This document shows, one piece after another, positions 4,354-47,874 of a DNA stretch of 64,000 nucleotides (its first letter is position 1; every line of letters starts with the position of its first letter). The stretch spans positions 1 through 64,000 of the forward strand of contig JAJZOR010000001.1 in NCBI GenBank assembly GCA_021811435.1, written 5' to 3'. The notes beneath the pieces are model-generated. The model searched no databases, was not told the origin of the DNA, and saw only the letters and a list, made by a program, of their open reading frames with translations. The translations under genes were made by a program, and so were the position numbers. This DNA comes from Microcaldota archaeon (GTDB taxonomy: Archaea > Micrarchaeota > Micrarchaeia > Micrarchaeales > Micrarchaeaceae).

Positions 4354-5319
4354 CTACAGTTGGCGCGCAATTGTCTCGGCGTGGTATGTTATGATTAGAT
4401 CCGCGCCTGCCCTTTTTATTGAGAGGAGTACCTCCAGTGCAGCCTTGTCGCCGTCAATCCACCCGTTCGCCGCCGCGGACTTCAGCATGGCATACTCGCC
4501 GCTCACGTTGTAGGCCGCGATGGGGACGTTGAACCTCCTCCTTGCCTCTGAAATGACGTCAAGATAGGCCAGCGCCGGTTTTATCATCACGATGTCAGCG
4601 CCTTCCTTGATGTCCAGCTCTATCTCCTTCATCGCTTCCCTTGCATTTGCCGGGTCCATCTGGTACGCCTTCCTGTTCCCGAACTGCGGGGTCGACCCGG
4701 CAGCCGACCTGAATGGCCCGTAGAACTCCGAAGCGTATTTCGCGGAATAGCCCATTATTACAGTGTCCTTGTAACCTGCAGCGTCAAGCCCTCCCCTGAT
4801 CGCAGCGACCTGTCCGTCCATCATGGCGCTTGGAGCCACCACGTCTGCTCCGGCCCTCGCGTACGCTACTGCGGCCTTGGATAGAAGCGGAAGCGTCATG
4901 TCGTTGTCGACGCCTGTGCCCCTGATTACGCCGCAATGGCCGTGGTCTGTATATTCGCAGAGGCAGACGTCGGCCATCACCACGGTGGAGGGCACTGCGT
5001 CCTTTATGGCGGATACCGCTTTGGGTATGATCCCTTCATCCGAATACGCCGCGGTGCCTAACCTGTCCTTATGCCTGGGTATGCCGAACAGAAGCACGGA
5101 TTTTATCCCGATTTCAGCAAGAGCAGAAACGTAATCGCCCACCTTGTCCGCAGAATAGCGGTTTATGCCAGGCATGGATGCTATCGGCTCTACAATCCCC
5201 TTTCCGTATCTGACGAATATTGGAGCGACCAGCTCTCCTGCGCTGAGTTTGGTCTCGCTCATTAGGCTCCTCAGTCCCTCGCTGCCCCTTAGCCTCCTTG
5301 ATCTTGACTTGATTTCCAT
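4354..5319 (-). CDS. hemB: Delta-aminolevulinic acid dehydratase (porphobilinogen synthase)
   Basis: Condenses two 5-aminolevulinate molecules to porphobilinogen. The 321-aa length is typical. The Cys-rich active-site metal motif DVCLCEYTDHGHCG (near 117-128) marks the zinc-dependent type. The two Schiff-base lysines are in GYSAKYASEFYG and VMIKPALAYLD, with the PFRSAAGSTPQFG substrate segment between them. Last gene of the heme operon, 34 bp after hemL. Confidence 0.96.
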   Translation of the reverse strand: MEIKSRSRRLRGSEGLRSLMSETKLSAGELVAPIFVRYGKGIVEPIASMPGINRYSADKVGDYVSALAEIGIKSVLLFGIPRHKDRLGTAAYSDEGIIPKAVSAIKDAVPSTVVMADVCLCEYTDHGHCGVIRGTGVDNDMTLPLLSKAAVAYARAGADVVAPSAMMDGQVAAIRGGLDAAGYKDTVIMGYSAKYASEFYGPFRSAAGSTPQFGNRKAYQMDPANAREAMKEIELDIKEGADIVMIKPALAYLDVISEARRRFNVPIAAYNVSGEYAMLKSAAANGWIDGDKAALEVLLSIKRAGADLIITYHAETIARQL

Positions 5320-5353
5320 TTAATCATCCGGTAAGCGAAATTACTTTGACATT

Positions 5354-6634
5354 CTAGAGCCCTTTAAATGCGTCTGCAGCTGCTTCGATTGTTTTTCTGA
5401 CGTCATCTTCTGAATGCGCAGACGAAACGAACCATGATTCCAATCCCGAAGGCGGCAGGTACACGCCGCAGTTTATCATGCCCCAGAAAAACCGCCTGAA
5501 ACTGGACTGGTCGGCCGCCTTGGCCTCGGAGAAGTTGGTCACGCCGTTCCCGGTGAAGAACATGCTCAGCATAGACCCGACTCTGTTGACCCTTACCTGC
5601 ACGCCGGCGCTTCCAGCGGCGTCGGTTAGCCCTTGTTCCAGCATAGCCGACACCCTTTCGAGCTTCCTGTATGTGGCGGCGTTCAGACGCGAGAGCACGG
5701 CCAGGCCGGCTGCCATGGCGACTGGGTTGCCGGAAAGCGTGCCTGCCTGATAGACCGGGCCCTCAGGCGACACGAGCCCCATTATTTCCTTGCGGGCTCC
5801 GTATGCCCCCACGGGGAAACCGCCGCCGATTATCTTGCCCAAGCATGTGATATCAGGCTTTATGCCATAGAGCTTCTGTGCACCGCCCACGCCCACCCTG
5901 AAGCCAGTGATCACCTCATCGAAAATCAACAGGGCACCGTTTTCCTTGCACAAGCCATGCACCTCGTTAAGAAATCCGCGATTCGGGGGCACGACGCCCA
6001 TGTTGCCGACCACGGGTTCTATTATGACCGCTGCAACCTCCCCGCCGTTGCTCTTGAATGCGCTTTCCAGGGAACGCGCATCGTTATAGGGGACGGTTAC
6101 TGTATCATTGGTCGTGCTTTGCAGCACTCCGCGCGATGCCGGTATGCCTAAGGTCGCCAGACCTGAGCCCGCGCCCGCAAGGAAAGCGTCGGCGTGCCCA
6201 TGATAGCAGCCTTCGAATTTTATTATCTTTCTGCGCTTTGTATAAGCTCTGGATAGGCGCAGCGCTGACATAGTAGCCTCGGTGCCTGAATTCACGAAGC
6301 GCACTTTTTCTATCGACCTTATGCGCTCGCATATTTTTTCTGCCAGCATCAGCTCTGGGACATTCGGGGCGCCGAAGCTGGAACCGGACTTTACCGCCTT
6401 GACCGCTTCCGCAACGACGCAGGGATTTGCGTGCCCGAGAATCAGGGCACCCCAGGAACAGACATAATCCAGAAGGCGATTGCCGTCAGCATCCCATATC
6501 CACTGCCCGCTGCCCCTTCTGATGAAGAGCGGATCGCCTCCGACGGCCTTGAACGCTCTTACAGGGCTGCTCACCCCCCCTGCCATTGCGCGTGCCGCCC
6601 TGGAGTACAATTTTTTGGATTTTGAAAATCTCAT
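5354..6634 (-). CDS. hemL: Glutamate-1-semialdehyde 2,1-aminomutase
   Basis: PLP enzyme that converts glutamate-1-semialdehyde to 5-aminolevulinate in the C5 route. The PLP lysine lies in TCLGKIIGGGFPVGAYG, preceded by the cofactor-binding FDEVITGFR. The N-terminus KLYSRAARAMAGGVSSPVRAF is characteristic. An ATG at 6664 lies inside the upstream gene; the ATG at 6634 gives a normal 426-aa protein 13 bp after that gene's stop. It works with HemA in the same operon. Confidence 0.95.
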   Translation of the reverse strand: MRFSKSKKLYSRAARAMAGGVSSPVRAFKAVGGDPLFIRRGSGQWIWDADGNRLLDYVCSWGALILGHANPCVVAEAVKAVKSGSSFGAPNVPELMLAEKICERIRSIEKVRFVNSGTEATMSALRLSRAYTKRRKIIKFEGCYHGHADAFLAGAGSGLATLGIPASRGVLQSTTNDTVTVPYNDARSLESAFKSNGGEVAAVIIEPVVGNMGVVPPNRGFLNEVHGLCKENGALLIFDEVITGFRVGVGGAQKLYGIKPDITCLGKIIGGGFPVGAYGARKEIMGLVSPEGPVYQAGTLSGNPVAMAAGLAVLSRLNAATYRKLERVSAMLEQGLTDAAGSAGVQVRVNRVGSMLSMFFTGNGVTNFSEAKAADQSSFRRFFWGMINCGVYLPPSGLESWFVSSAHSEDDVRKTIEAAADAFKGL

Positions 6635-6647
6635 AGCTCTAACACCG

Positions 6648-7793
6648 CTACGGCGCCAGCCCAATCTCGCCGGCGCATATCCTCGGGTAAATGCACGCTG
6701 GGTCGGATGCGGTCGGGCTGTGTTCGGAATAGTACGCCCTTGACCTGCTGCCGCCGCAGATCCCCTTGAACTCGCATTTGCCGCAATAGCCGTCGAGTTC
6801 CCTTGCGCGTATGCCTTTCATCACAGTACTGCCCCTATAGACTTCGACAATGTCGTCGGTCCTGACATTGCCGAGCTTTATCGGCAGGAAGCCGCCGGGG
6901 GATATGGTGCCGTCGTTTGCCACGAACAGTATGCCGTCCCCGTCCAGGGTGCCGCGCGGGGCGATGGTGGACTCGTATCGCGGCGTGCCCTCGAGCTCCA
7001 CCAGTTCTGAATGCAGATGTGAGTAAAACCCATCTTTCCAATAAGCGCCTCTTTCGGCCCTCATCTTGGCCACCCTCCTTTCGAACGGAGCCTCTACCGT
7101 CCTTATCACCACGCCGTAACGCGATGCATCATAAAGGAAATTGCATACGCCCTCGTACTCAGCTGGGCTTATGTCTTCGATTTCCGCTCCGCGGCCCACC
7201 TTTATCAGGAAGAATACCTCCCACACTTTGACGCCGAGACCTTTTATAAGGTTGAATATCCTGGGAAGCTCCCGGACGTTGCTCTTCATAACTGTAGTAT
7301 TCACCTGTATGCCCAAACCTATATCTACGGCATTCCTGATCGCCTGCAGCGTGGCATCGAAGGTCCCGTCAACGGTCCTTATGCCATCGTGTGTCTCCCT
7401 GACCGCACCGTCGAGGCTCACGGATATGGAGGCGGCACCGGAATCACGGAGCTTCACCATGGCTTCGCGGGTCAACCTGTCAGTTACTGCCGGGGATACG
7501 GCGAACTTCACGCCTCTCTTGTTCGCATGCCCCATCAGCTGGAATATGTCATCCCGCATCAATGGATCCCCGCCGGTGAGCACCATCACAGGATAAGGAG
7601 CTCCGAATCCAGTCATCCTGTCTATGAGCGCTATGCCTTCATCCGTAGTCAACTCTCCCGGCAGCGCGGTGTGTATCGCCGATGCCCTGCAATGCCTGCA
7701 CGCGAGCATGCATGCTTTCGTTGTCTCCCAAAATACAAGTATGGGCTTTTGCGCAAACGTCGGCGTCCGCGCGGTTTTCGTTTCTCCATCCAT
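6648..7793 (-). CDS. Radical SAM/SPASM protein of the heme operon (AhbD-like or TIGR04053-like)
   Basis: A 381-aa radical SAM enzyme. The SAM-cluster motif is CMLACRHC (CX3CX2C) near the N-terminus and LTGGDPLMRDD is the GGD motif. A C-terminal SPASM-type cluster region reads YCGKCEFKGICGGSRSRAYY, followed by one more Cys (DPACIY). AhbD, the heme synthase that decarboxylates Fe-coproporphyrin III, has a very similar C-terminus but with CGGC where this protein has CGGS, a variant I associate with the TIGR04053 family. It sits between hemY and hemL in a nine-gene hem operon that has no hemF, hemN or hemQ, so it most likely performs the propionate decarboxylation step. The exact substrate is inferred. 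The ATG at 7793 follows the hemY stop by 11 bp. Confidence 0.85.
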   Translation of the reverse strand: MDGETKTARTPTFAQKPILVFWETTKACMLACRHCRASAIHTALPGELTTDEGIALIDRMTGFGAPYPVMVLTGGDPLMRDDIFQLMGHANKRGVKFAVSPAVTDRLTREAMVKLRDSGAASISVSLDGAVRETHDGIRTVDGTFDATLQAIRNAVDIGLGIQVNTTVMKSNVRELPRIFNLIKGLGVKVWEVFFLIKVGRGAEIEDISPAEYEGVCNFLYDASRYGVVIRTVEAPFERRVAKMRAERGAYWKDGFYSHLHSELVELEGTPRYESTIAPRGTLDGDGILFVANDGTISPGGFLPIKLGNVRTDDIVEVYRGSTVMKGIRARELDGYCGKCEFKGICGGSRSRAYYSEHSPTASDPACIYPRICAGEIGLAP

Positions 7794-7804
7794 CAAAAGA
7801 CCAT

Positions 7805-9208
7805 TTAAATGCCGCTTATATAGCTGATCACTTTCTGCGCGACTGCCTCCGAATTGCTTATGCAGCTCGCTATGCCTACGCCGTTGCTCCACGCCCCTGT
7901 CATGAATATGCCGCTATATCCTTCTAGGCGCCTGCGCAGGTCGTCGAGCCTTTCCCTGTGCCCGACCGTGTATTGCGGCATTCCCATGTCCCAGCGGTGC
8001 ACTACGCCGAACAGAGGCTTCCCCGTTATGAGCGCGGCTTCCTTCAGCTCCACCTGGGCCGCGGATATCAACGCGTCGTCGTCGAGAGCGAATGCGTCGT
8101 TAGAATAAGCCCCGTTGAAGTAACACCGCACCAGATCGTAGCCTTCCGGCGCCCTGCGATTCCATTTTGACGAACTCCACGTGACGGCGCTAAGCAGCCG
8201 GCCCTCCCTATGCGGCACAAGGAATCCTGAGCCTGTCATTTTGTCGGATACGCCGGCGCTCCTATAGGCAAGCGATACTGTAATCAGCGGCACGTACTTG
8301 ATGCCCCCAAGCAGCGCGGCTACGCCCTTATCGAAAGCCTCGATTATCTTGCCGGCCTCGTACGCTTGGGTTGCGAAGACCACTGCATCCGCCAAAACAG
8401 GCGCATCGCCGTCTATTTCGACCAGATACTTCGGCATGGAGGTTTCCGCGCGCGCTATCCTGCGGACATTCTTGCCTAGGCGTATGTTTTCCAGGCCTAC
8501 TGCAGCGGAAAGCGCGCTTGTCAATTCCGCCATGCCGTTTGCAAAAGACTCGAAGCGGACATCCTTTTTGTGCGCGGCGGTTTCTTTGGCGCGCGATGCG
8601 AGTATTAGGCTGCGGTGCTTGCGCTCGATTTCCTCCAACACGGGGAACGCGCATCTGAGGCTCGTATGCCCCGGGTCGCCCGCATGGATACCTGCCAGTA
8701 GCGGCTCTGCCATACGGTCGTATACCTCCCTGCCGAACCGCCTGCACACGAAGCTGGCTGCGTCCTCGTCGCTGTCGCCGCTTTTTTTCGGGACAAGCAC
8801 CTCCATTGCGGCCCTCGCCTTGCCCAATGGCGATATCATGCCGGTGGAGAGCAGGGGCGCCAGCTTGGCCGGCAGCATCAACCTCATGCCATCCGGTAAT
8901 CTCTCAAGCTTGCCATCGAGCAAAACGGATACGCCTTCGCTGCCTGCCTTCGGTTCGATGAGGTCGCGCCCGATGCCGAGTTCTCCGCAGAACTCCTCAA
9001 ACTTCTGCCTTTCTGCGACAACGGAATCGGGGCCGGCATCTATAACGAATCCGTTCACCTTATCTGTCACTATTTTGCCGCCCGCAGTCGCACCCCTCTC
9101 GAAAACAATCAGGCTTATCTCCGCTCCCCGCTCCCTAGCCAATTTTTTGATGTGGTAGGCAGCTGCCAATCCGGAAATTCCTGCGCCTATGACCGCCACA
9201 GTTCTCAT
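7805..9208 (-). CDS. hemY: HemY-type protoporphyrinogen/coproporphyrinogen oxidase
   Basis: FAD-dependent oxidase of 467 aa that aromatises a porphyrinogen ring. The N-terminal dinucleotide motif is VAVIGAGISGLAAAYHI, followed by the PPOX-family AGGKIVTDKVNGFVIDAGPDS segment. The C-terminal FAD motif is GIFMTGAWSNGVGIASCI. It overlaps the hemA start by 4 bp (translationally coupled). Because the operon lacks a classical coproporphyrinogen decarboxylase, this enzyme may act on coproporphyrinogen III (a CgoX role) rather than protoporphyrinogen; the sequence alone does not settle it. Confidence 0.9.
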   Translation of the reverse strand: MRTVAVIGAGISGLAAAYHIKKLARERGAEISLIVFERGATAGGKIVTDKVNGFVIDAGPDSVVAERQKFEEFCGELGIGRDLIEPKAGSEGVSVLLDGKLERLPDGMRLMLPAKLAPLLSTGMISPLGKARAAMEVLVPKKSGDSDEDAASFVCRRFGREVYDRMAEPLLAGIHAGDPGHTSLRCAFPVLEEIERKHRSLILASRAKETAAHKKDVRFESFANGMAELTSALSAAVGLENIRLGKNVRRIARAETSMPKYLVEIDGDAPVLADAVVFATQAYEAGKIIEAFDKGVAALLGGIKYVPLITVSLAYRSAGVSDKMTGSGFLVPHREGRLLSAVTWSSSKWNRRAPEGYDLVRCYFNGAYSNDAFALDDDALISAAQVELKEAALITGKPLFGVVHRWDMGMPQYTVGHRERLDDLRRRLEGYSGIFMTGAWSNGVGIASCISNSEAVAQKVISYISGI

Positions 9209-10392
9209 TCGCGCACCTCATTTGCGTTTACGCCGTAGATCTCCTTCAGCATCGCTATCCTTTCCGGATCGCCTTCGTCTATGATTCTCTTTATCCTCCC
9301 CACGTGCCCGGCGAGGATGTTGTTCGCCAAGGATCTGGTAAGGTCGTCCACCGTGCCGCTGTGGGCGCCGCCAATGATTTTTATCGCCTTGTCGCGCTCG
9401 GCCTTCCTCGCCGACTCGGCGCTGACGTAGATGCGCGATATTACATCCTCTGCATCCATGAATCTCAGCTTCTTGACTGCGTAGCCCAGGTGCTCGTCTA
9501 TTATGCGGTTGGCCTGGGATATGTCCTTTTCCCTAAGCTCTACGTTCCTGCATATGTAACCCTTGAGCTGCTCCATGCCTATGTAATCCGCTACGCCGCG
9601 AGCGTCCACGTTCCTGGGGTTCCCGAGGTCGATCACTATCTTTGGGCGGGCGGCGGGCCTAGCCATCCGCAATACGGGCTTCGGCGATGACACCGCGGTG
9701 ACTATGGACTCGAACGCGGCTGGATCCAGCTTCGACAGCTCGATGTAGCTCGCGGAAAAGAGGTCAGCCAGCGCCTTGGTCCTGCGCGCGTCCCTGCCGG
9801 ACACCGTCACCTCGAGCTTGGAGCCTTTCAGGCATTCCAATACGCCGCGCGCCATGCGCCCCGTCCCCAAAACGCATACGTTCTTTACGTCCTCCCTTGC
9901 AACCAGTATCTTTGCTGCAGCCTGCGGCATTGATGCTATGCCCTTTGCCACCCTTGTCTTCTCCCGCACGCTCTTGCTGGCGCTAAGCGCCTTCATGAAT
10001 ACGTAGTTCAGCGTCTTGCCGCATGTCCCGGCCTTCTGCGCGGCGCCGAAGGCTTCCTTCACCTGCCTCTGTATCTCCTGCTCACCGACGACCATTGAAT
10101 CCAGGCCGGCGCAGACCCGCATGAGGTGCCGTATAGAATCCTTGCCGTCCAGGAAGAACACCCCGTGCGCGCCTATGGACGCGGCCAGGGCCGAGAAACC
10201 CAGCTTCGCAGATTCTGCGGATGCCACTGCCGCGTATACCTCCAGCCTATTGCACGTCTTCAGCACCACGTACTCGCTGACCCCTATGCTTTCCATGCGC
10301 TTGGCCAGGAATCCGGAATCAAGGCGGGTCCAGCGCTCCAGCTCCGCCAGCTCCATTTTTTTGTAGGTCGCATGCACGCTAACAATCTCCAT
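9205..10392 (-). CDS. hemA: Glutamyl-tRNA reductase
   Basis: Reduces glutamyl-tRNA(Glu) to glutamate-1-semialdehyde, the first committed step of the C5 heme route. The catalytic Cys47 lies in VVLKTCNRLEVY. The VVGEQEIQRQVKEAF segment and the NADPH-binding VCVLGTGRMARGV motif are present. Of two in-frame starts (10407 and 10392) the ATG at 10392 is preferred: it gives the standard N-terminus MEIVSVHATYK and a TATA-like box (gcggataaaaac) lies about 21 nt upstream, hinting at an internal promoter in the 58-bp gap after hemD. Confidence 0.94.
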   Translation of the reverse strand: MEIVSVHATYKKMELAELERWTRLDSGFLAKRMESIGVSEYVVLKTCNRLEVYAAVASAESAKLGFSALAASIGAHGVFFLDGKDSIRHLMRVCAGLDSMVVGEQEIQRQVKEAFGAAQKAGTCGKTLNYVFMKALSASKSVREKTRVAKGIASMPQAAAKILVAREDVKNVCVLGTGRMARGVLECLKGSKLEVTVSGRDARRTKALADLFSASYIELSKLDPAAFESIVTAVSSPKPVLRMARPAARPKIVIDLGNPRNVDARGVADYIGMEQLKGYICRNVELREKDISQANRIIDEHLGYAVKKLRFMDAEDVISRIYVSAESARKAERDKAIKIIGGAHSGTVDDLTRSLANNILAGHVGRIKRIIDEGDPERIAMLKEIYGVNANEVRE

Positions 10393-10450
10393 CCAACCAT
10401 CTACCATGTTTTTATCCGCTCAACTGACTGCATCACCGCACTGCATGACA

Positions 10451-11245
10451 TCATAAACGCCTCTCCAGCCCGTCGAGCATGTCTTTGAACGTGTAAGTTT
10501 CGGGCACGACGTCTGCCCTCAGGCCCAGCCCTTCCAGGCGCTTCGCCGTCGTAGGGCCTATCGCTGCGATGACCGCCTTGGAGAGCATTTCCCTCGTTTT
10601 CTGCGCCCCTATCTGCCCCTCCAATATCTTGAACATGTTCTCCGCGGCCAGCGGGCTGCCGAAAGTCAGGGCATCCACTCCGCCGCACGACATCTTCTTT
10701 ATGAAAAGCCGCGCCCTTTCCGGTTCGCGCGGCACGCGCGTGCAGTATGTAGGTATCTCCGTCACTTCCGCGCCCAGTAGCGCCAGCCTTGATTTCAAGT
10801 CGCTTTTAGCGGACTTGTTCCTGACCAGCGCGATCCTCTTCCCGACAATGCCGGACTTGCCCAGGAGCTCCGCGATGCCGTCAGAGCTGTACCTCTGCGC
10901 CACGGCATCTACGCTCAGCCCGGCCGAAGCCAGCTTCTGCGCGGTTTGGGAGCCTATGGCTACAATACTTGCTTTGCCCAAATTGCGCCGCACGTCCTTG
11001 AAGCCCAACCCGAGCGCTATCTTCGAAAGGTATACGAAAGCGTTCCAGCTCATGAACACTATGATGTCTATTTTGCCGCTGCCGGATTCATCCATTAGCA
11101 GCGACACGGCCGTTTCGCTGCGCGCTTTCCTGAACCTCACCGTAGGGAAATAGAGCGGTATGCCCCCCCTGCTGCGTATCATGCCCGCGGTCTCCCCCTG
11201 CGATTCTTCGGCTCTCGTAACCGCTATCACCTTGCCATCCATCAT
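10451..11245 (-). CDS. hemD: Uroporphyrinogen-III synthase
   Basis: A 264-aa protein that cyclises hydroxymethylbilane with inversion of ring D. The family is poorly conserved, but the two-domain pattern is visible: MDGKVIAVTRAEES start, FMSWNAFVYLSK, then IVAIGSQTAQKLASAGL and the C-terminal repeat VIAAIGPTTAKRLEGLGL. The start ATG (11245) overlaps the hemC stop as TAATG, so the two are translationally coupled. A longer open frame extends upstream inside hemC and is not coding. Confidence 0.9.
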   Translation of the reverse strand: MMDGKVIAVTRAEESQGETAGMIRSRGGIPLYFPTVRFRKARSETAVSLLMDESGSGKIDIIVFMSWNAFVYLSKIALGLGFKDVRRNLGKASIVAIGSQTAQKLASAGLSVDAVAQRYSSDGIAELLGKSGIVGKRIALVRNKSAKSDLKSRLALLGAEVTEIPTYCTRVPREPERARLFIKKMSCGGVDALTFGSPLAAENMFKILEGQIGAQKTREMLSKAVIAAIGPTTAKRLEGLGLRADVVPETYTFKDMLDGLERRL

Positions 11246-12183
11246 TATACCGCCTCGGCTTTCCTGGCACCCCATCCGGCTATCCAGCCCATCGCGCCGC
11301 GATCCATAAGGGTCTTGCCTACCCGCTTGGCCAGTTCCTCGGCCGTTGCGGCTGCGCCGGCAGCCGAATATGACATTGCGCCAGTGCCTTTTGGCGAGAA
11401 TACCGTGCAACTGAGCGCAAGCCTTCCCCTGCTTGCGCGGCCCAGCACCCCGACAGCGGCTTCGCATCCGACGCCCAGAAGTGATGCAAGCTTCCGTTCT
11501 GCGGAAACCTCATATCGCGATTCCGTGTGGTCGATCTTTTTCAGGGAGCCGAGTATGTCGGCCCTGTCTGCCGACGCGACCACGGCCAGCGCGCCCTGTC
11601 CGGCTACTGGCATGAACTCGTCCAGCCCCAGCACCTGCGCGACCTTATCCTGCAGGCCGAGCCTGTTGACCCCTGCCTCGGCCAGTATCAGCGCGTCGTA
11701 TTCGCCGCGCTCCATTTTTTTTATGCGCGTTTCCACGTTTCCCCTTATGGCTTTCGCCCTCAGGTCCGCCCTGGACCGCTTCAGTTCGGCGATCCTTATT
11801 ATGCTGCTCGTCCCTACAATCGCGCCGGGCTGGAGGTCGTCAAGGCCCACAGAGCCTCTTGATATCAGGACGTCGCTGGGCGATTCCCTCATGGGCACAG
11901 CCGCTATTACGAGGCGCCTGTCAATCGCCGTCGGTAGGTCCTTCATGCTGTGGACCGCGAAGTCGACTTTGCCGTCTATGACGGCCTCGTTTATCTCTTT
12001 GCCGAAAATGCCGTCGCCGGCCATTTCAAAAATCGGGCTTTTCTGGTTCAGGTCGCCGCTCGTCTTTATGACTTTAGGCTCTAACGCGATGCCAGGCTCG
12101 GCCCTGCTAAGCAGATCAGACACTATGGCGGTCTGCATCAGCGCCAACCTGCTTCCCCTAGTTCCGATTAAAAGTTTGCCCAA
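11245..12183 (-). CDS. hemC: Porphobilinogen deaminase (hydroxymethylbilane synthase)
   Basis: Polymerises four porphobilinogens into hydroxymethylbilane. The N-terminus LLIGTRGSRLALMQT, the central DALILAEAGVNRLGL and the dipyrromethane-cofactor cysteine in LLGVGCEAAVGVLG are all present. The 312-aa length is typical. It starts 3 bp after the hemH stop. Confidence 0.96.
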   Translation of the reverse strand: MGKLLIGTRGSRLALMQTAIVSDLLSRAEPGIALEPKVIKTSGDLNQKSPIFEMAGDGIFGKEINEAVIDGKVDFAVHSMKDLPTAIDRRLVIAAVPMRESPSDVLISRGSVGLDDLQPGAIVGTSSIIRIAELKRSRADLRAKAIRGNVETRIKKMERGEYDALILAEAGVNRLGLQDKVAQVLGLDEFMPVAGQGALAVVASADRADILGSLKKIDHTESRYEVSAERKLASLLGVGCEAAVGVLGRASRGRLALSCTVFSPKGTGAMSYSAAGAAATAEELAKRVGKTLMDRGAMGWIAGWGARKAEAV

Positions 12184-12186
12184 GCG

Positions 12187-13131
12187 TCACACCCCGTTGT
12201 CCTGCGCGGACTCCAACCCTTCGATCACGATAGAAGCCAGAGCGTTGATGAAAGAGGCGGACGCATTAGGAGTGCCGACGCGGTGGATATCGGCGCCGCG
12301 CTGCCTGAGCGCGGATACGCATTCTATGTCTATGTCGTACAGCGTCTCGAGATTCTCTGTTACAAAGCCTATCGGCGCTATGATTATGCGCGTGCCGCGT
12401 TCTGCGGCCAAGTCCGCCGCCCGCTCGCCCACACTCGGTCCGAGCCAGCCCTTGCCGCTGGCGCTCTGGAAGGCTAGCGACCAGCGCTGCAGCCCCATAC
12501 TTGCTGCTATAGCCTCGCACAGTTCCCTGAACTGCGTCGGGTATGCGTCGCCGTGCTCGAGAATAGACGCCGGCAGGCTGTGCGCCGTGAACAGTATGTG
12601 TGTGTCGTCGGTTGTTGCTCCTATGCTTTTCATCTTGGCACCTATCGCATCCGCCCAGACGCCCACAAATGCCGGGTCCAGGTGCCACTGGCCCGCGAAA
12701 TGCACTGCTGGCTTGCCGCCGGCGGCCGCGGTCGCGGCCAGGGCGGACCTGTAGCCTCCGATGCTCGTCTGCGAATAGAAAGGCGTCATGGGCAGCGCAA
12801 GTATGCCATTGACTTCATCGCGGGACAGGTTTTCTGCCGCAGAGGCTATGGTCGGCTCCCAGTGCAGCATGCCAATATGTACTGTGACATCGGCGCCCCT
12901 GGATTGCAGCGAGCCCTGCAGGGCGCTGGCCTGCTGGGCGGTTATGCCGTTGAACGGCGAGGTGCCGCCTATCGCCGCGTATCTTTTCCTGAGCCGCTCT
13001 GTCTCCTCCGGGGTCGGCCTTGCGGCGGAGCCCGGCCGTGCGTGGCCGGCCTTTATGTTACATAGGTAGCGCTCGATGCCTTCGGGCGAGTCCGGCGATC
13101 CGTATCCCATTAGCAATACTCCGGTTGTCAT
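12187..13131 (-). CDS. hemH: Ferrochelatase
   Basis: Inserts ferrous iron into a porphyrin. The N-terminus TGVLLMGYGSPDSPEGIERYL is diagnostic; the metal-binding His is in ILFTAHSLPASI and the conserved Glu in IGFVTENLETLYDID. The 314-aa length, without an extra C-terminal domain, suggests a soluble enzyme. It could use protoporphyrin IX or, if the operon works through coproporphyrin, coproporphyrin III (a CpfC role). It is followed by hemC after 3 bp. Confidence 0.94.
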   Translation of the reverse strand: MTTGVLLMGYGSPDSPEGIERYLCNIKAGHARPGSAARPTPEETERLRKRYAAIGGTSPFNGITAQQASALQGSLQSRGADVTVHIGMLHWEPTIASAAENLSRDEVNGILALPMTPFYSQTSIGGYRSALAATAAAGGKPAVHFAGQWHLDPAFVGVWADAIGAKMKSIGATTDDTHILFTAHSLPASILEHGDAYPTQFRELCEAIAASMGLQRWSLAFQSASGKGWLGPSVGERAADLAAERGTRIIIAPIGFVTENLETLYDIDIECVSALRQRGADIHRVGTPNASASFINALASIVIEGLESAQDNGV

Positions 13132-13135
13132 GCGA

Positions 13136-14167
13136 TCACGTCTCGGTGGTTTCGTGCACCATCTTGACCAGCCTGGCTGCGTTGCCTATCGGCGTGTTAG
13201 GGAGCATCCCGTGCCCCAGGTTGAATATGTGGCCCGGCCTGCCGGCCGCGCCGTCGAGTATGCCGAGCGCGCGCTTCCTGATGACCTGGAAATCGCAAAG
13301 CATTAGCGTGGGGTCCAGGTTGCCCTGCACGGAAACCCTTCCTAGGCGCGCCCAGGCATCCGCTATGCCGATGCGCCAGTCGACGCTTATAGTATCGGCT
13401 CCGACCTCCTTGAGCATCTCGAGCATCCCTGACGTGCCGGTGCTGAAGTATATCGTAGCGGCGCCGGTCTTGCGGAGTTCTGCAAAGAGGCGCTTCAGGT
13501 ACGGAAGCGCGTATTCGTCGTAATCCTCCGGGCCCAGGACGCCTGCCCAGCTGTCGAATATCTGTATGGCTTCTGCTCCGCTCTCGACCTGTGCCCTGGC
13601 GTAGGAGGATATCGACCTGACCAGCGTGGCCATGAGTCCCGGCCAGAGCTCCTGCTCGGAGTGCATGAAGCCCTTGAGCCGCACGAGGTCCCTGGTGAGG
13701 CTCCCCTCGATCATGTAGCTGGCCAGTGTGAACGGGGCGCCTGCGAACCCTACTATGGCTGCCGCATCGCCGATGGATTTCTTCGAACGCCTTATCGTCT
13801 CCATGACGTAGCCCGTATCCCTGTACGGGTCTATCTGCCTTAGCGCATCTAGGCCCGCCTTGTCCTTGATCGGGTTATTTACTACCGGACCGCCGTGGCC
13901 CAGAGTGAACGAGACGCCCATTGCCTCCAGGGGGGTCATTATGTCTGCAAATACTATGGCGGCGTCCACGCCAAGGAGCTTGACCGGCAGCGTGGTTATG
14001 GCGGAGCTCAGGGAGGGGCTCTTGTATATGGCGGCGATGCTGCGGCCGCGCCTCAGCGCCCTGTACTGCGGCAGGTACCTGCCGGCCTGGCGCATGAACC
14101 AGACCGGCGTGCGCTCGGTCTTCCTTCCCTTTGCCGCCCTCACCAATATGCTTTCTTTCTTTGCCAT
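13136..14167 (-). CDS. hemE: Uroporphyrinogen decarboxylase
   Basis: Decarboxylates uroporphyrinogen III to coproporphyrinogen III. The signature PVWFMRQAGRYLPQYRALR lies near the N-terminus, and GFAGAPFTLASYMIEG and the C-terminal FNLGHGMLP motif follow. The ATG at 14167 gives a normal 343-aa protein; an ATG at 14266 would add an Ala/Arg-rich extension with no family counterpart. It is the first gene of the heme operon, whose promoter must lie in the divergent region to its right. Confidence 0.95.
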   Translation of the reverse strand: MAKKESILVRAAKGRKTERTPVWFMRQAGRYLPQYRALRRGRSIAAIYKSPSLSSAITTLPVKLLGVDAAIVFADIMTPLEAMGVSFTLGHGGPVVNNPIKDKAGLDALRQIDPYRDTGYVMETIRRSKKSIGDAAAIVGFAGAPFTLASYMIEGSLTRDLVRLKGFMHSEQELWPGLMATLVRSISSYARAQVESGAEAIQIFDSWAGVLGPEDYDEYALPYLKRLFAELRKTGAATIYFSTGTSGMLEMLKEVGADTISVDWRIGIADAWARLGRVSVQGNLDPTLMLCDFQVIRKRALGILDGAAGRPGHIFNLGHGMLPNTPIGNAARLVKMVHETTET

Positions 14168-14496
14168 TGATTGTGCACCTGATGCACCTATTGCCTTTGA
14201 CGCATCGCGGTTTGCGCGTGCATCATGCAGTATAGCGCCTCTTCGCCCAGTGACAGCGCGTGCCATCTCAAATCCAGGGCATGGTTATTTGATCTGGCGC
14301 GGCTGAAAGCGTGCGGAAGCGCCATCTCAGTTGACAGCATCCGAAGAAGTTTAGGGTTGAAACACCATAATACGGTTAGTATGAAACTAGTTTCACTATG
14401 CATCCGCATCTGTCTGGGCCATGCAACTGCCATGCAGGCAGGGTTGACAGACACTTATAAGAGTTTAACGACAAAATACCGTATGGAGGTGGTGCG
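14168..14496. promoter_or_regulatory. Divergent regulatory region between the heme operon and the ABM gene
   Basis: A 329-bp gene-free stretch. On the + strand an acttataag TATA-like box (about 14452-14460) and a strong ribosome site GGAGGTG (14484-14490) serve the ABM gene. A 14-bp perfect palindrome tgaaactagtttca (14382-14395) is flanked by partly matching arms (tagt/acta), and a related ttgaaac half-site lies about 20 bp to its left. I could not pick out a clear TATA box for hemE. The palindrome is a candidate operator for a regulator controlling both transcripts. Confidence 0.45.
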
Positions 14497-36357: not shown

Positions 36358-36409
36358 TAAATCCCCCAGAACAGAAAGAACCATGGATAGTATTTATATC
36401 TGACATCCT

Positions 36410-36430
36410 CCCACGAATAAATTCTGTGGG
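36410..36430 (-). repeat. Right-end hairpin of the IS605 element
   Basis: CCCAC (36410-36414) pairs with GTGGG (36426-36430) around an 11-nt AT-rich loop. On the - strand it is followed by AGGATGTC, matching the right end of the 26-27 kb element. Likely also the scaffold part of the TnpB guide RNA. Confidence 0.6.
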
Positions 36431-36469
36431 GTTCCTCTGCAATTGCAGATGGTTTGACGTTTCTATCAT

Positions 36470-37489
36470 TCATAGACTATCGCCTCTGGGCGTATCAGTG
36501 CTGCCCTTGAACACATCCCTGTCTGTGTTCAATTGACCTATGTTGCTGTTTATTGGTTGACGCAAAGCGATATTGAATGATGCATTTGCGTCTGCATGGT
36601 CAACGTGTCCACACGAATGGCACACGAATTTCTTTGAATCCCTAATCCCTATGTTTCCGCACCTTGAACACTCTTGCGATGTGTTTTTAGGCTCTACATA
36701 GGTTAGTGGTATTCCGCATAATTTAGCTTTGTATTCCATGAAATTCTGCAACTGATAAAATGACCAGCTGTACAGACTGTAGTTGAATTTCCTTGTATGT
36801 TTCTTGTTATTCCTAATTCCGTCAAGTTGTTCGAGTTTGATTCCTGCGTTGTTCACGATTGCAATGTTGACTATCTCCTTCGCGATCTTGTGGTTGAGGT
36901 CTCTAATTATTCTTGATTCCCTGTGCTTTATTTTCTTGACGAGTCGCAGTTTGCCCTTCTTTTGCAAGTCTTTCCTAATGTTTTTGTATTTATTATGGAT
37001 GTGAAGTGCCTCCTTTCCAAGTTTCCATACCTTTCCTGTTGAAGGATTACCTGCAACCGCAATGTGTCCTTTCGTGTTCCTGTCAACCCCAATCCATGCC
37101 TTTGGCGTTATCTGAGGTTGTTCTTTTATGTTGACTGAAATGTATGCGTATTCGTTGTCAAGTTCTATCTGGTTTATCTTTTCGTAGCCATTCCTGAAAT
37201 TGTATTGTGTCTTGAACTTCAGGCACGGAATCTCTATTACTCTTTTCTCTTTATCCACATTGATAGATCGGGAAGGGACGGTGAGCTTTACTCTATTGAC
37301 GTTCTTAATCGTTTTGTTGTTTCCGTATTTTCTTAGAATCTGATTGGCAATTGCAGACTTCAAGCCGAATTGTTTAACGTCTTTTGATGAACGAGTCTTA
37401 TGGGTTAATACATATTTGGCAATCATCTTTGCTTTATCTAACTCTGAGGAGAAATTCCTATTGTGTTTTATTTTGAAAGTTAGAATCAT
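36470..37489 (-). CDS. tnpB: TnpB RNA-guided nuclease, intact
   Basis: A compact 339-aa TnpB. RuvC-I is AWIGVDRNTKGHIAVAG (Asp), RuvC-II is AGIKLEQLDGIRN (Glu), the zinc ribbon is CSRCGNIG with CHSCGH, and RuvC-III is DHADANASFNIALRQP (Asp). All three catalytic acids are present, unlike the two other TnpB copies in this window. Its start overlaps the PH-like gene's stop (ATGA), so translation is coupled. Confidence 0.88.
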   Translation of the reverse strand: MILTFKIKHNRNFSSELDKAKMIAKYVLTHKTRSSKDVKQFGLKSAIANQILRKYGNNKTIKNVNRVKLTVPSRSINVDKEKRVIEIPCLKFKTQYNFRNGYEKINQIELDNEYAYISVNIKEQPQITPKAWIGVDRNTKGHIAVAGNPSTGKVWKLGKEALHIHNKYKNIRKDLQKKGKLRLVKKIKHRESRIIRDLNHKIAKEIVNIAIVNNAGIKLEQLDGIRNNKKHTRKFNYSLYSWSFYQLQNFMEYKAKLCGIPLTYVEPKNTSQECSRCGNIGIRDSKKFVCHSCGHVDHADANASFNIALRQPINSNIGQLNTDRDVFKGSTDTPRGDSL

Positions 37490-37851
37490 AGAGTCACCTT
37501 GTGTTTTGTTATTTCTTTGTTTATCTGGGAGATTATACTTGCATTATCATCAAGCTCGAGGACTATGACATTGTAGGGTTCGTCTTTTAAATGTATTGCG
37601 AATGCTTTATCCTTGTCTTTCATCACATAGAAACCTTTTCCTTCGTTAGTGAGAAACCTGCCATAATCATAGCGCCTATGCCCCAAAGCGGTTCCGCCGA
37701 CCCTTAAATAAGCTTTTACTTTTTCTGCGTTGCCATCTACATTAATTATGTGCCTATACGGTATGAATAATCGGTTTTTAATTGCAAGAATTTTCTCGAT
37801 TCCTTCCAAATCTATCTCTATGCCGCTGTCCTTAAAATTTAATTTTACCAT
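37486..37851 (-). CDS. PH-like domain protein carried inside the IS605 element
   Basis: A 121-aa protein lying between tnpA and tnpB. LEKILAIKNRLFIPYRHIINV, then YLRVGGTALGHRRYDYGRF, GKGFYVMKDKDKAFAIHLKD and YNVIVLELDDNASI match a bacterial PH-like family whose members read IPxSxI..GTxxPG....GTF...FW....KAxVIxLxxxxxDxLVVEVxDP. These proteins occur as free-standing cytosolic genes of unknown role; as IS605 cargo it is unusual. It starts 28 bp downstream of the tnpA stop. Confidence 0.7.
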   Translation of the reverse strand: MVKLNFKDSGIEIDLEGIEKILAIKNRLFIPYRHIINVDGNAEKVKAYLRVGGTALGHRRYDYGRFLTNEGKGFYVMKDKDKAFAIHLKDEPYNVIVLELDDNASIISQINKEITKHKVTL

Positions 37852-37879
37852 ATGATCACTATATACATACTGTTTTTAT

Positions 37880-38272
37880 TCATACCTTATCCCACTGTTG
37901 TTCTATATATTTCTTTATTACTGCCGCACTTACGTTTCCTGCGGTTGAAATGAAGTATGAACGAGTCCAGAGAGTAGGCATCTTTAGAAGTTCTGGAAAC
38001 TCATTTCTTAGATACCTCGAACTTCTGCCCTTGAATCTCTTGACTACTATCTCAGGTCGTGTTCTTGTATCAGCACCTACAAAAAGATGCACATGATCTG
38101 GCATCACTTCTCTTGAGATTATTTCCCAACCATTTTCAAGTGCAACGTCTCTGATTATCTCCTCAAGTCGCACCTTTATCTTGCCTACCAATAACTTTCT
38201 TCTGTATTTAGGACAGAATACAATATGATAATTAACCATCGAAACAGATGTGTTTTTGTGTTTGTATTCCAT
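37880..38272 (-). CDS. tnpA: IS200/IS605 Y1 transposase
   Basis: A 130-aa single-strand DNA transposase. The HUH metal motif is HVHLFVGAD in MPDHVHLF, the catalytic Tyr lies in VIKKYIEQQWDKV, and the N-terminal YHIVFCPKYRRKLL and RSSRYLRNEFPEL segments are standard. The length is slightly under the typical 130-155 aa but all motifs are present. Confidence 0.92.
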   Translation of the reverse strand: MEYKHKNTSVSMVNYHIVFCPKYRRKLLVGKIKVRLEEIIRDVALENGWEIISREVMPDHVHLFVGADTRTRPEIVVKRFKGRSSRYLRNEFPELLKMPTLWTRSYFISTAGNVSAAVIKKYIEQQWDKV

Positions 38273-38351
38273 GATTATTCCTTTAGATATATTATACTGT
38301 ATCTAATTTATATGCCTATCTGTCTATCAAACTGCAACGCATCGCATTCAT

Positions 38352-38372
38352 CCCACCTTTAAAAGAGGTGGG
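38352..38372 (-). repeat. Left-end hairpin of the IS605 element
   Basis: CCCACCT (38352-38358) pairs with AGGTGGG (38366-38372) around a 7-nt loop. The flanking sequence (AATGCATAGCAGAAAG on the - strand) also recurs at the left end of the 26-kb element with one change. Confidence 0.7.
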
Positions 38373-38533
38373 CTTTCTGCTATGCATTCTGTAAGCCAAA
38401 GGCTTAATGTGTACCGTTAATTTTGGTTACCCGCGCAATGCTCCATGCCTTATGTGCGTGCCAGCCTAGAATCAGACATTGGCACGTTTTGCCGTATGAT
38501 GCCGTTGACGTGCCGGGCATCAAAATGTGGAAG

Positions 38534-38926
38534 CTATACGCCGTACTTATCTAGCTCTTTGTGCACCTTCCGGCCCAGTATGCGTGACGCTATGACCATC
38601 ATGGCAGTCCCGATGAGCAGTGGAGCTCCGCCTACGGCAAGCAGCACCACAGGCACTGCGCTTGAAGTTATGAAGCTGCCCACAAAGCCTACCGCGTATA
38701 TAGGTATGCCTACCGCCCTGAGGAATTTGCCTGCCGTGTTTATCCAGGCCAGAATGCCGTCCGCCTTGCTTTCGCTCTCGGCGCTCGGCGCTTCGGACTT
38801 AGCCTGCAATGCGCTTTTATCGGCTCTCTTGTCGCGCCTCAACTGACACAGCGCATTCGTTGCTGCTTCGGCGTTTTGCTCTGTCGGGCCCTCGTACGCC
38901 TCCTTGCAAACGCGCTTGGTTTTCAT
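38534..38926 (-). CDS. Small membrane protein of unknown function
   Basis: About 130 aa. A charged, Ala/Glu-rich N-terminal half (KTKRVCKEAYEGPTEQNAEA) is followed by two predicted membrane helices (GIPIYAVGFVGSFITSSAVP; VVLLAVGGAPLLIGTAMMVI) and a basic tail (RILGRKVHKELDKYGV). No family is recognised. It lies downstream of the Ntn-hydrolase gene on the same strand with a 27-bp gap and may be cotranscribed. Two near-identical starts (38932, 38926) exist. Confidence 0.6.
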   Translation of the reverse strand: MKTKRVCKEAYEGPTEQNAEAATNALCQLRRDKRADKSALQAKSEAPSAESESKADGILAWINTAGKFLRAVGIPIYAVGFVGSFITSSAVPVVLLAVGGAPLLIGTAMMVIASRILGRKVHKELDKYGV

Positions 38927-38953
38927 TGCCATCTAAATCATTATTTTGTTGCG

Positions 38954-39784
38954 CTATGACACGCTGGCGCTCTTGCTTTTGTGCGCCGAGGCGGACGGTT
39001 CAGTGCGCAGCAATTCCTTGAATCCCTGCCGCGCCGCTATCTTCTCCGCAAAGTACGCCCTCAATTCCTCGTAGGACCTGCCCTCCAGTCGCTCCCTTTC
39101 CGCCTTGCTAATCACAATGCTGATGTCGTTGGATTTTTCGAAATCCATCGCGTGAGCTTTTATCGCGCCTCCAACGCCGTGCACCCTTGCTAGCCTGTAA
39201 GTGATCGTGTAATTCTTCTCCATGTACCTGTCCTCAAGCATGAACCCTACCGCCAATGCGTCAGCTAGCTCTATTTTGCTTTTCAGGTAGTACTTGTCCG
39301 CCAGAGCGTCGAGGTAATCCTGCACCGTTCCGTCCAATCCGTCTGCTATCAGGCCGCCGTCCGGGATTTGGTAGAGCTTCGTCTTTGGCTTGCTAACAGG
39401 CAGCTTTGCAGGGTTTATGTCAGCATAAACGGTCTTTATGGTGCCGTCGTCAAGCCTCACGGTCATCAGCAAAGCGGACGAGGCATTGCCCATGCACCAC
39501 CTTGTGATTTTGGATATCCTTGCTTCCAGCTCCTTCTCCGTCTGGCTGTCATTGTCTTTGAGGTATTGCTTCAATAGGGGTTCGGAATTGAACATTGCGT
39601 AAGTAGCCGCAACGATTATGTCGGCCCCGCCCGACCCCGCGATTGTAAGGTCGCCGTCTTTTGAAACGAACGTCTTCTTCATTCTGTTTTTGTATAGTGC
39701 TACAAATGGCAACGCTATTGTGCCCCTGCTGTCTGATATCGTCAGGACCCCGTCCTTGTATGGTATTAGAGCGATAATTGTCAT
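38954..39784 (-). CDS. Proteasome-beta/HslV-like Ntn hydrolase paralog 1
   Basis: Starting at the ATG at 39784 the protein begins Met-Thr-Ile-Ile-Ala-Leu-Ile-Pro-Tyr-Lys-Asp-Gly. After Met removal Thr would be residue 1 and the Asp of ISDSRGT falls at exactly position 17, as in proteasome beta subunits (Thr1/Asp17/Lys33); Lys31 or Lys35 (YKNRMKKTF) could be the active-site lysine. DGDLTIAGSGGADIIVAA fits the next beta-hairpin and helix. At 276 aa it is longer than a beta subunit. There is no propeptide. A second copy lies at 46894-47874. The fold and nucleophile are inferred from the pattern. Confidence 0.6.
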   Translation of the reverse strand: MTIIALIPYKDGVLTISDSRGTIALPFVALYKNRMKKTFVSKDGDLTIAGSGGADIIVAATYAMFNSEPLLKQYLKDNDSQTEKELEARISKITRWCMGNASSALLMTVRLDDGTIKTVYADINPAKLPVSKPKTKLYQIPDGGLIADGLDGTVQDYLDALADKYYLKSKIELADALAVGFMLEDRYMEKNYTITYRLARVHGVGGAIKAHAMDFEKSNDISIVISKAERERLEGRSYEELRAYFAEKIAARQGFKELLRTEPSASAHKSKSASVS

Positions 39785-39812
39785 AAGTTCAGCCATTGCA
39801 TTGTATAGTGCG

Positions 39813-40547
39813 TCAGTTGTCTCCCCTGAGCAGGAAGCTCAGGCCCTTCTTCTCATGCTCGCGCAGGAAGTACTGGCTTAGCACCGCGACAGTCCTGAAG
39901 TCCGTTATCTTGTTCTGCTTGAGGAGCACCTCGACAAGATCCTCCGGGAACACGCACACCTTTATCGGCTGCTCCTCGTACTCGAGATGCCTGTAACCCT
40001 CGGTCAATCCTGTAGCTATATAGACGTCCTCCCTCTGCTCAAACCTTGATGGCATGAAATGCATGTCATGCATGAATAATTCGAGGTTGGTTGCCTTGTA
40101 TCCCGTCTCCTCCTCCAATTCCCTCCTTGCCGTTGTCTCGCTATCTTCCCCCTTGTCCTTGCCACCAGCAGGCAACTCAAGCTCCCACCTGCCGATTGAA
40201 GGCTCGGGCTTATACTCAAGAACTATGTATTTCTTGCCCCCTCTCTCTACTATAGGCAGGATTGTAGCGCCATCGCCGCTTTTTATTACCTGCCATTCGC
40301 TATGGACGGTTTCTACGTCATACTCCCTGTTTGAAGTCTTTATGTGGCCCACTTTCTGCCAGTCATCCTCGCCTAGCGTTATGGGTGGTGCGCCGGCACC
40401 CCCGTTGTTCAGGATCTTAAGTATTTCTTCGCCCTCCTTTATGCCATTCTCTACCGACGCCTTCTCTCCGGTCTTATTGCTCGCACTGGATTCGTCTGGC
40501 TTTTTGACATCCTCAGCTGGCGCCTTATTGTAGAGTGCAGCCTCCAT
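39813..40547 (-). CDS. Nudix hydrolase, ADP-ribose pyrophosphatase-like
   Basis: A 244-aa protein with a perfect Nudix box: G-x5-E-x7-REL-EEETGY, spanning GGKDKGEDSETTARRELEEETGY. The preceding WELELPAGG and following VYIATGLTEG match the ADP-ribose pyrophosphatase group. An N-terminal extension of about 70 residues is Lys/Glu-rich and likely disordered. It sits 28 bp upstream of the Ntn-hydrolase paralog 1 on the same strand. Confidence 0.85.
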   Translation of the reverse strand: MEAALYNKAPAEDVKKPDESSASNKTGEKASVENGIKEGEEILKILNNGGAGAPPITLGEDDWQKVGHIKTSNREYDVETVHSEWQVIKSGDGATILPIVERGGKKYIVLEYKPEPSIGRWELELPAGGKDKGEDSETTARRELEEETGYKATNLELFMHDMHFMPSRFEQREDVYIATGLTEGYRHLEYEEQPIKVCVFPEDLVEVLLKQNKITDFRTVAVLSQYFLREHEKKGLSFLLRGDN

Positions 40548-46414: not shown

Positions 46415-46885
46415 TCACTTCGACCCTTTCATCATGCGGGATACGTCCTTTATATGGGGGGGCTCCTTGCCTGGCTGCAATTCTGCCACTAATTGGATCG
46501 CCTTGAGATCTTTTATGTATGACACCCTGCCTATTTTGCCGTATGCCTCGCTTGCGTATCTCAGATATTTTTCGGCATCGCTTTGTACGATACCCTTGTT
46601 CAAGACTACGCGTATCGCATTGAAGTCGTAATCGGCGTAATAGTCGTACGATGCTGGTTTTATGTCGCCTATACGCAAGTCGCCAAGTGCTGGGCTGCCC
46701 GAGACTATGAGTATGGTGCCCAAAAACTCGGCAAAGCTTGAAACCCCGTGCGCGCAGTTTTGCAGCAGCTTTATGACCCTCTCCGGTTCGGCGTCGTGGT
46801 CCAGATGGAACGCCTTGTCGCTAACCCCGAAACCGTTCGGATTGCCGAAATAGATGTTTCCCGTCGCAGCCATAAAAACCGCCAT
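46415..46885 (-). CDS. Unrecognised 156-aa protein paired with Ntn paralog 2
   Basis: A soluble protein with no recognised family (MAVFMAATGNIYFGNPNGFG at the start). It begins 8 bp after the stop of the Ntn-hydrolase paralog 2 and is surely cotranscribed with it. It has a compact alpha/beta pattern with two internal helical stretches (EPERVIKLLQNCAHGVSSFA; AEKYLRYASEAYGKIG). Possible substrate, adaptor or inhibitor of its neighbour; this is inference. Confidence 0.65.
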   Translation of the reverse strand: MAVFMAATGNIYFGNPNGFGVSDKAFHLDHDAEPERVIKLLQNCAHGVSSFAEFLGTILIVSGSPALGDLRIGDIKPASYDYYADYDFNAIRVVLNKGIVQSDAEKYLRYASEAYGKIGRVSYIKDLKAIQLVAELQPGKEPPHIKDVSRMMKGSK

Positions 46886-46893
46886 TTATGCTA

Positions 46894-47874
46894 TTATATC
46901 GGACCGCTATCGCTGCCCTTCGCTTTTTGCTTTTTATTTGGATTCCCCTCTTTTTCAGTGGTTTTTATATAAAGTTCGCGTATGACGCTGAGCGCCTTAT
47001 CCTCGTCCTTGGCAACCATGTTGAGCAGCATTTCGAATTCGGACCTCTTGCTCTGTGCTATCGCGTCCAGTACGCTGAACTCCTTTGCGTGGTTTTCAGC
47101 GAACTCTGCAAGCGCACCCAATTTTTCAGGGTATAGATTGGCGAGCTTTGCTACTGACTTTATGAGGTTTTCCCTTTTGTCATCCACCTTCAGACTGTCA
47201 TCTATGTAATCCCATTTGCTGCGCTCCTGCGTTACGTCCCTGCCATCGACTTCATGGTCCATCCAGAAAGCGTTTGTTGAGTTGCTGCCTATGGCGCACA
47301 TTTCCAATGGATCTCCTACATACAGGCCGAATGCCGGGTTTGCTTCCTGCAATTTTACTAATATGTAGCCGATCACCTCTGCCTCCAACTCTGATGCCTG
47401 GTTCGGATTGTACCTGTAGTTATAGACCAGGCTGTCCAGCATGCGCTGCGAGCCGTCTATGCCGTTTGCCCAGCACTCGCCCTTCTGAACTCTCCCTGCC
47501 GCTATGACATTCAATGCAGGCTGCACGTCGACCAGGAATGGTTCTACATTGCCGGAATCGCGGCGCGAGGCGCCGAATATTATAGCGCCGAAACCTCTTT
47601 CGATCAAGAATTCCTTGAGATTTGGTTCCGCCTTCATCAGCGCTTCTATGTCGGCTGTCACTTTTCCAAAGTCTGAGTTTGATATCTCGGCCGAATCCTT
47701 TGTTAGTATCTTGTTGAGGCACTCTACGAGATCGACTGACCCTTCGGCTGCGCCTATCACATTTTCGGAGCTGACTATTATCTTTTGCCTATACGGGACA
47801 CGGCCGTTGGTAACCCTGCTGTCTGACACGAGCAGTAGCCCGTCCTTGTATGGTATCCTAGCTATTACCGTCAT
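46894..47874 (-). CDS. Proteasome-beta/HslV-like Ntn hydrolase paralog 2
   Basis: A 326-aa paralog of the 39-kb protein. It starts Met-Thr-Val-Ile-Ala-Arg-Ile-Pro-Tyr-Lys-Asp-Gly, so Thr becomes residue 1 after Met removal; the Asp of VSDSRVT is again at position 17 and Lys30 (PYRQKIIVSS) is near the expected Lys33. The following NVIGAAEGSVDLVECL fits the fold. The start is fixed by an AGGAG ribosome site (taggagaactgc) and TATA-like aatataata upstream. The C-terminal half is helical with a Lys/Gly/Asn-rich tail. Substrate unknown. Confidence 0.6.
   Translation of the reverse strand: MTVIARIPYKDGLLLVSDSRVTNGRVPYRQKIIVSSENVIGAAEGSVDLVECLNKILTKDSAEISNSDFGKVTADIEALMKAEPNLKEFLIERGFGAIIFGASRRDSGNVEPFLVDVQPALNVIAAGRVQKGECWANGIDGSQRMLDSLVYNYRYNPNQASELEAEVIGYILVKLQEANPAFGLYVGDPLEMCAIGSNSTNAFWMDHEVDGRDVTQERSKWDYIDDSLKVDDKRENLIKSVAKLANLYPEKLGALAEFAENHAKEFSVLDAIAQSKRSEFEMLLNMVAKDEDKALSVIRELYIKTTEKEGNPNKKQKAKGSDSGPI

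Follow-up and report, generated by a model that had tools for sequence, protein, structure and literature searches.

Members of the proteasome-like family are built on a beta-sheet core with helices H1-H4 and share a Thr1 or Ser1 nucleophile together with Asp17, Lys33 and Gly47; 22 subfamilies of these proteins have been listed as uncharacterised, and no genomic context or co-occurrence was found that pointed to their function (Fuchs, Alva and Lupas 2021, PMC8665760). According to the same work, 20S beta subunits acquire activity only once assembled, and connectase, a proteasome homolog that lacks a propeptide, is a monomer using the same Thr1 chemistry.

The window analysed here, i.e. the whole stretch of 64,000 nucleotides presented above, contains on its minus strand (39784..38954) a gene whose 276-aa product is annotated, from its reading frame, the profile searches and a structural model, as a putative propeptide-free proteasome-like Thr Ntn hydrolase (orthogroup OG1 of the family described below). 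The frame extends from a start codon at 39784-39782 to a stop at 38954 (276 codons), and the plus strand across the same coordinates is interrupted by 8 stops; the protein reads MTIIALIPYKDGVLTISDSRGTI...KNRMKKTF...LTIAGSGGAD. The start codon lies directly before the codon for Thr (39779..39784, minus strand); since 30/32 members of the family begin exactly in this way, 39784 is the likely start, and an alternative ATG is found four codons upstream, at 39796. The two members lacking this start codon both belong to the related genome G003, which has GGG and ATA at this position. In G003_a (L121:7590-8402 region), where the codon is GGG, an upstream GTG may give rise to a five-residue leader ending in Gly, similar to a minimal proteasome propeptide, or the GGG may be a sequencing error.

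The Met-Thr start and the Asp at mature position 17, on which the preliminary description had relied, are indeed both present: Thr2 is found in the minus-strand frame and Asp18 (39731..39733, minus strand) lies in an SDSR-GT context, followed by an invariant Ser and a near-invariant Arg. The Lys-rich segment, which had been compared with that of the proteasome, also exists, but mature position 33 is occupied by Arg; the equivalent of proteasome Lys33, as aligned to 20S beta with hhalign, is Lys37 (39674..39676, minus strand), i.e. mature position 36, as the S3/S4 loop exceeds that of 20S beta by three residues, and it is still longer in other members. The IAGSGGAD segment was correctly noticed, and its Gly52 (39629..39631, minus strand) aligns with the oxyanion-hole Gly47. 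In the 24 members that were aligned, T2, Y9, G12, D18, S19, K37 and G52 are invariant, so that the equivalents of Thr1, Asp17, Lys33 and Gly47, the last two assigned by alignment to 20S beta, are conserved in 24/24 sequences with a mean column identity of about 28%. At the other end of the protein, the tail after the C-terminal helix carries an [LMF]LR motif (39005..39013, minus strand), found in about half of the members. This tripeptide occurs in the tails of 16/30 of them, in most cases 17-36 residues before the C-terminus and frequently with a basic stretch after it; it is a possible linear motif.

The AlphaFold model of the target, built from an eight-sequence alignment (pLDDT 82.9, pTM 0.82), shows the alpha-beta-beta-alpha fold, with the beta-sheet core and the helices H1-H4 of the proteasome-like family and a long C-terminal helix (238-261), which in the model resembles the coiled-coil helix of Anbu-type homologs. 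The best PDB matches of this model in Foldseek were 20S beta subunits and Anbu (E 6e-9 to 2e-8, prob 1.00; TM about 0.6-0.7 by target length). At the level of sequence, the family profile matched the yeast 20S beta1 subunit in PDB (E 5e-5) and the 20S beta subunits of Micrarchaeota (E 8e-9, hhalign), while no match in any sensible region was obtained with 20S alpha; the best match, extending over the whole domain, was with a group of propeptide-free homologs of other Micrarchaeota, here called A8 (E 1e-12). These data, together with the invariant catalytic equivalents, bear out the initial assignment as a proteasome-like Ntn hydrolase without propeptide, and the protein is best placed, on profile and model evidence, in the proteasome-like branch of the Ntn hydrolases. 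Neither a predicted structure devoid of the Ntn sandwich nor homologs without Thr2 and Asp18, both named beforehand as counter-evidence, were encountered, the latter among the 24 aligned members. The statement that no established family was recognised also stands, as the target has no meaningful match in Pfam, NCBIfam, PHROGs or PADLOC, and PF00227 itself does not match it.

Orthologous pairs display dN/dS values of about 0.06-0.35 where computable, with dS near saturation, which is indicative of purifying selection. The invariant residues, the dN/dS well below 1 and the profile match to 20S beta1 indicate that the features of the target are more than chance resemblance. The presumed specificity pocket behaves differently from the catalytic centre: positions 20, 31, 35, 45, 49, 52 and 53, which we take from general knowledge of the 20S to form the S1 pocket, belong to the most variable columns in the N-terminal part, position 45 being unlike between most orthogroups. 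Their mean entropy is 2.84 versus 1.97 bits, a value reached by 540/100,000 random column sets, for positions transferred from 20S by alignment with an uncertain register near 31 and 35, where the S3/S4 loop varies. Since loops vary too, and given this register, the hypervariability of the pocket is suggestive only.

The preliminary description had counted two such proteins in the window, the second being a 326-aa member of orthogroup OG8 (46894..47874, minus strand), identified by the family search and the tree; this count is right for the window, but the host genome (1.10 Mb, 25 contigs) holds seven more. The nine family loci comprise seven full-length genes of the short form, one of a long form (370 aa) and a truncated one (149 aa), which lies between the c22 and c23 genes; a full gene occupies the same site in the sister genomes G003, G002 and G004, so the truncated copy has probably decayed from such a gene. 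The genome also has canonical 20S alpha and beta genes, separate from these nine loci. The other four genomes of the same genus, three of which are the Candidatus Micrarchaeota MAGs FK3.bin83, clean615 and YP2.bin58, have 3 to 7 copies each, to which a further, more divergent G004 member is added; all five genomes retain the long form. Canonical 20S beta is likewise found in all five and alpha in 4/5, no alpha gene having been found in the fifth, which is only 60% complete. A tree of 30 members gave about 12 orthogroups, most of them strongly supported and unevenly spread between species, which become about 13 in the five genomes when the extra G004 member is counted. The paralogs are divergent (20-45% identity) and patchy between species, and for most orthogroups synteny is conserved between species, next to housekeeping genes; the ortholog of the target is G001_b (support 99/98, 47% identity).

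Among the 301 Micrarchaeota genomes searched, the family was absent from the 296 outside these five. A long-form match in another genus (G031) was discarded, as its whole 3.6-kb contig is 99.8% identical to the host genome and the fragment is thus probably misbinned, and three other matches in the phylum outside the genus turned out to be canonical beta subunits or a WPH-like gene. When 84,980 species genomes were scanned with a single N-terminal pattern, which is a narrow test, relatives came up in this genus only. A viral or plasmid origin was considered and rejected, no relatives having been found in IMG/VR, phages and plasmids; weak structural matches in phages resemble known phage proteasome homologs. 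No paper mentioning such proteins was found in the Micrarchaeota literature, and both the size of the expansion and its confinement to one genus had escaped the preliminary description. The genus consists of tiny archaea from acid mines. Elsewhere in the window, positions 4354-14266 of this reduced archaeal genome hold a series of genes resembling those of heme biosynthesis (hemB, hemL, hemA, hemC, hemE and others, as judged from translations); heme pathways have been reported in some Micrarchaeota orders (PMC12892359).

The target is located between a Nudix hydrolase gene, 28 bp upstream (39813..40547, minus strand; PF00293, E 5e-13), and a gene for a 132-aa protein with a hydrophobic segment, 21 bp downstream (38534..38932, minus strand). 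Both had been given as its setting and both are there, but they do not appear to be equivalent: the Nudix gene adjoins an aldehyde dehydrogenase (ALDH) gene without the hydrolase in the two sister species G004 and G003, hence it is probably a bystander and was rejected as functional partner, whereas the small membrane protein is, from gene arrangement, the likelier partner. The ortholog G001_b, which lies at an unrelated site, has a small membrane-protein gene 17 bp downstream; homology between the two OG1 membrane proteins is not significant (89/1000 shuffles score as high). The segment absent between the ALDH and Nudix genes of the sister species measures 3.4 kb (36400..39822) and contains an IS200/IS605 TnpB-TnpA pair with a 121-aa ORF between its genes (36470-38272, minus strand), the 132-aa membrane-protein gene and the target. 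The difference between the sites may reflect an insertion here or parallel loss elsewhere; no target site duplications were seen on inspection.

The partner link is firmer for other members of the family than for the membrane protein of the target, in a survey whose neighbourhood statistics cover the fetched regions. A gene of about 152 aa with no known domain, named A10, is found directly downstream of members in 6/6 of its copies in the genus; these follow members of three related orthogroups forming one clade, and none occurs elsewhere in the genus. One copy (46415..46873, minus strand; 152 aa) accompanies the second member of the window, and the others are at L110:9150-9614, L117:7523-7981, L126:9116-9580, L133:8235-8687 and L134:8812-9522. 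Judging from this arrangement, A10 is a dedicated partner gene; its model is of moderate quality (pLDDT 71) and gave no significant PDB match; its resemblance to the structures of type III secretion chaperones is weak and not significant. A membrane protein, c79, is present in two copies, confined to the two genomes with OG2, which it adjoins or from which it is separated by one gene, at different genomic sites. OG3 adjoins a trio of genes resembling TrkA-N/potassium-channel proteins, and in two genomes OG5 is followed downstream by a J-domain gene. Ankyrin-repeat genes (L122:10141-10824, L124:9249-9950, L113:8625-9800) adjoin the long form, G003_b and G003_d, a post hoc observation concerning genes of which there are only a handful per genome. 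The partner types are thus heterogeneous across the family, and a single common mechanism cannot be assumed.

The constant catalytic centre, the variable pocket and the private neighbours together favour partner-guided, specialised proteolysis. The explanation that we prefer, with a confidence somewhat above even, is that the target is a self-standing, propeptide-free threonine protease, one of several specialised paralogs guided by dedicated partners, while the canonical 20S does the bulk degradation. Met aminopeptidase normally removes a Met that precedes Thr; in the target it would remove Met1 and expose Thr1, which, activated by Lys and Asp, would attack the peptide bond in the manner of the proteasome, Gly stabilising the oxyanion and water resolving the acyl-enzyme. 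Each paralog would act on a small range of clients that its partner delivers, and limited proteolysis at, or of, a membrane-associated client would be the likeliest role of the target, the 20S of the same cell performing the bulk degradation.

Counterpoints to an active self-standing protease are that 20S beta subunits depend on assembly for their activity (PMC8665760) and that Asp166 and Ser169, which assist catalysis in the 20S, are without equivalents in the family, where, in the hhalign register, Val or Ala is found at 169 and position 166 is variable; the propeptide-free homologs of other Micrarchaeota also lack this pair. This absence could mean that the members, though descended from proteasome subunits, are without catalytic activity and serve for binding or as scaffolds, and the 20S alpha subunits are a precedent for this fold losing activity; the four invariant catalytic equivalents, in sequences otherwise so divergent, and the conserved position of the start codon before Thr make this very improbable. 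If Thr1 is active, its acyl-enzyme might react with the amine of another protein rather than with water, thus joining two proteins as connectase-type ligases/transpeptidases do; the absence of a propeptide and the Thr1 chemistry shared with the monomeric connectase (PMC8665760), as well as the longer S3/S4 loop of several members, at the site of the connectase specificity insertion, are consistent with this. The target model, however, has H1/H2 and no two-helix insertion between S3 and S4, and connectase was retrieved neither in Pfam (PF09894) nor in the PDB profile searches, and we regard ligation as improbable.

A small chance is also given to a ring assembly like 20S or HslV, by which the paralogs would be additional general proteases, perhaps sharing unfoldases or chaperones: the predicted H1-H4 elements and the J-domain gene next to one orthogroup agree with it, but no AAA+ unfoldase was noticed beside any family copy, the paralogs are too divergent and too patchy for obligatory mixed rings, and a canonical 20S is already available. 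A slimmer chance still is left for mobile or selfish two-gene modules, e.g. pairs serving conflict or defence, the protease switching a membrane effector on or holding it in check. Such modules would account for the presence and absence at the ALDH-Nudix site between sister species, beside an IS200/IS605 element, for the placement of the OG1 and OG2 orthologs, whose sites do not correspond although their neighbours are similar, and for the fast divergence and patchy distribution; against them are the lack of a meaningful PADLOC match and of viral, phage or plasmid relatives, the synteny of most orthogroups and the retention of the long form in all five genomes.

Beyond the single gene, the family hints at a proteasome fold turned into a set of specialised enzymes, and it is surprising that a reduced 1.1 Mb genome spends up to nine loci on them beside a full 20S. 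A bolder proposal, which we consider unlikely, is that one genus made this fold into about 13 partner-wired solo threonine enzymes, some of them mobile, for site-specific protein processing or joining; if true, this would be a role that no proteasome homolog other than connectase is known to have. The genomic context is informative here, as it includes partner genes confined to the immediate vicinity of family members (6/6 copies for A10) and a gene unit that this species has and two sister species lack, beside a catalytic centre that stays constant while the pocket varies; it provides concrete pairs with which to test how solo proteasome-fold enzymes gain specificity.

Compared with the known systems, the target shares with 20S beta (PF00227) the fold and the Thr1/Asp17/Lys33/Gly47 equivalents (hhalign E 8e-9, Foldseek E 6e-9), but it differs by the absence of the propeptide that most beta subunits carry and of a D166/S169 equivalent and by a longer C-terminus, and the family differs by its many divergent paralogs. 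Anbu, a bacterial family with a split-ring assembly (PMC8665760, Table 1), has a proteasome-like fold with a long C-terminal helix (Foldseek E 2e-8) and was not recovered by the sequence-profile searches of the family. Connectase (DUF2121, PF09894) has in common with the target an archaeal origin, the lack of a propeptide and a single chain, and is a Thr1 enzyme, as the target would be; it is devoid of H1/H2 and has two helices inserted between S3 and S4, whereas the target model has helices at 54-66, 68-77 and 80-94 and a short S3/S4 loop. The WPH/ACC-like homologs, as represented by the A8 genes of other Micrarchaeota, have in common with the family the Met-Thr start without propeptide, D17, K33, G47, the C-terminal helix and a VG[GE]PI segment replacing the D166..S169 region of 20S. 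Unlike these homologs, which are usually single-copy and in most cases about 230-260 aa long, the family members measure 262-391 aa, are multicopy, and have tails and dedicated neighbours.
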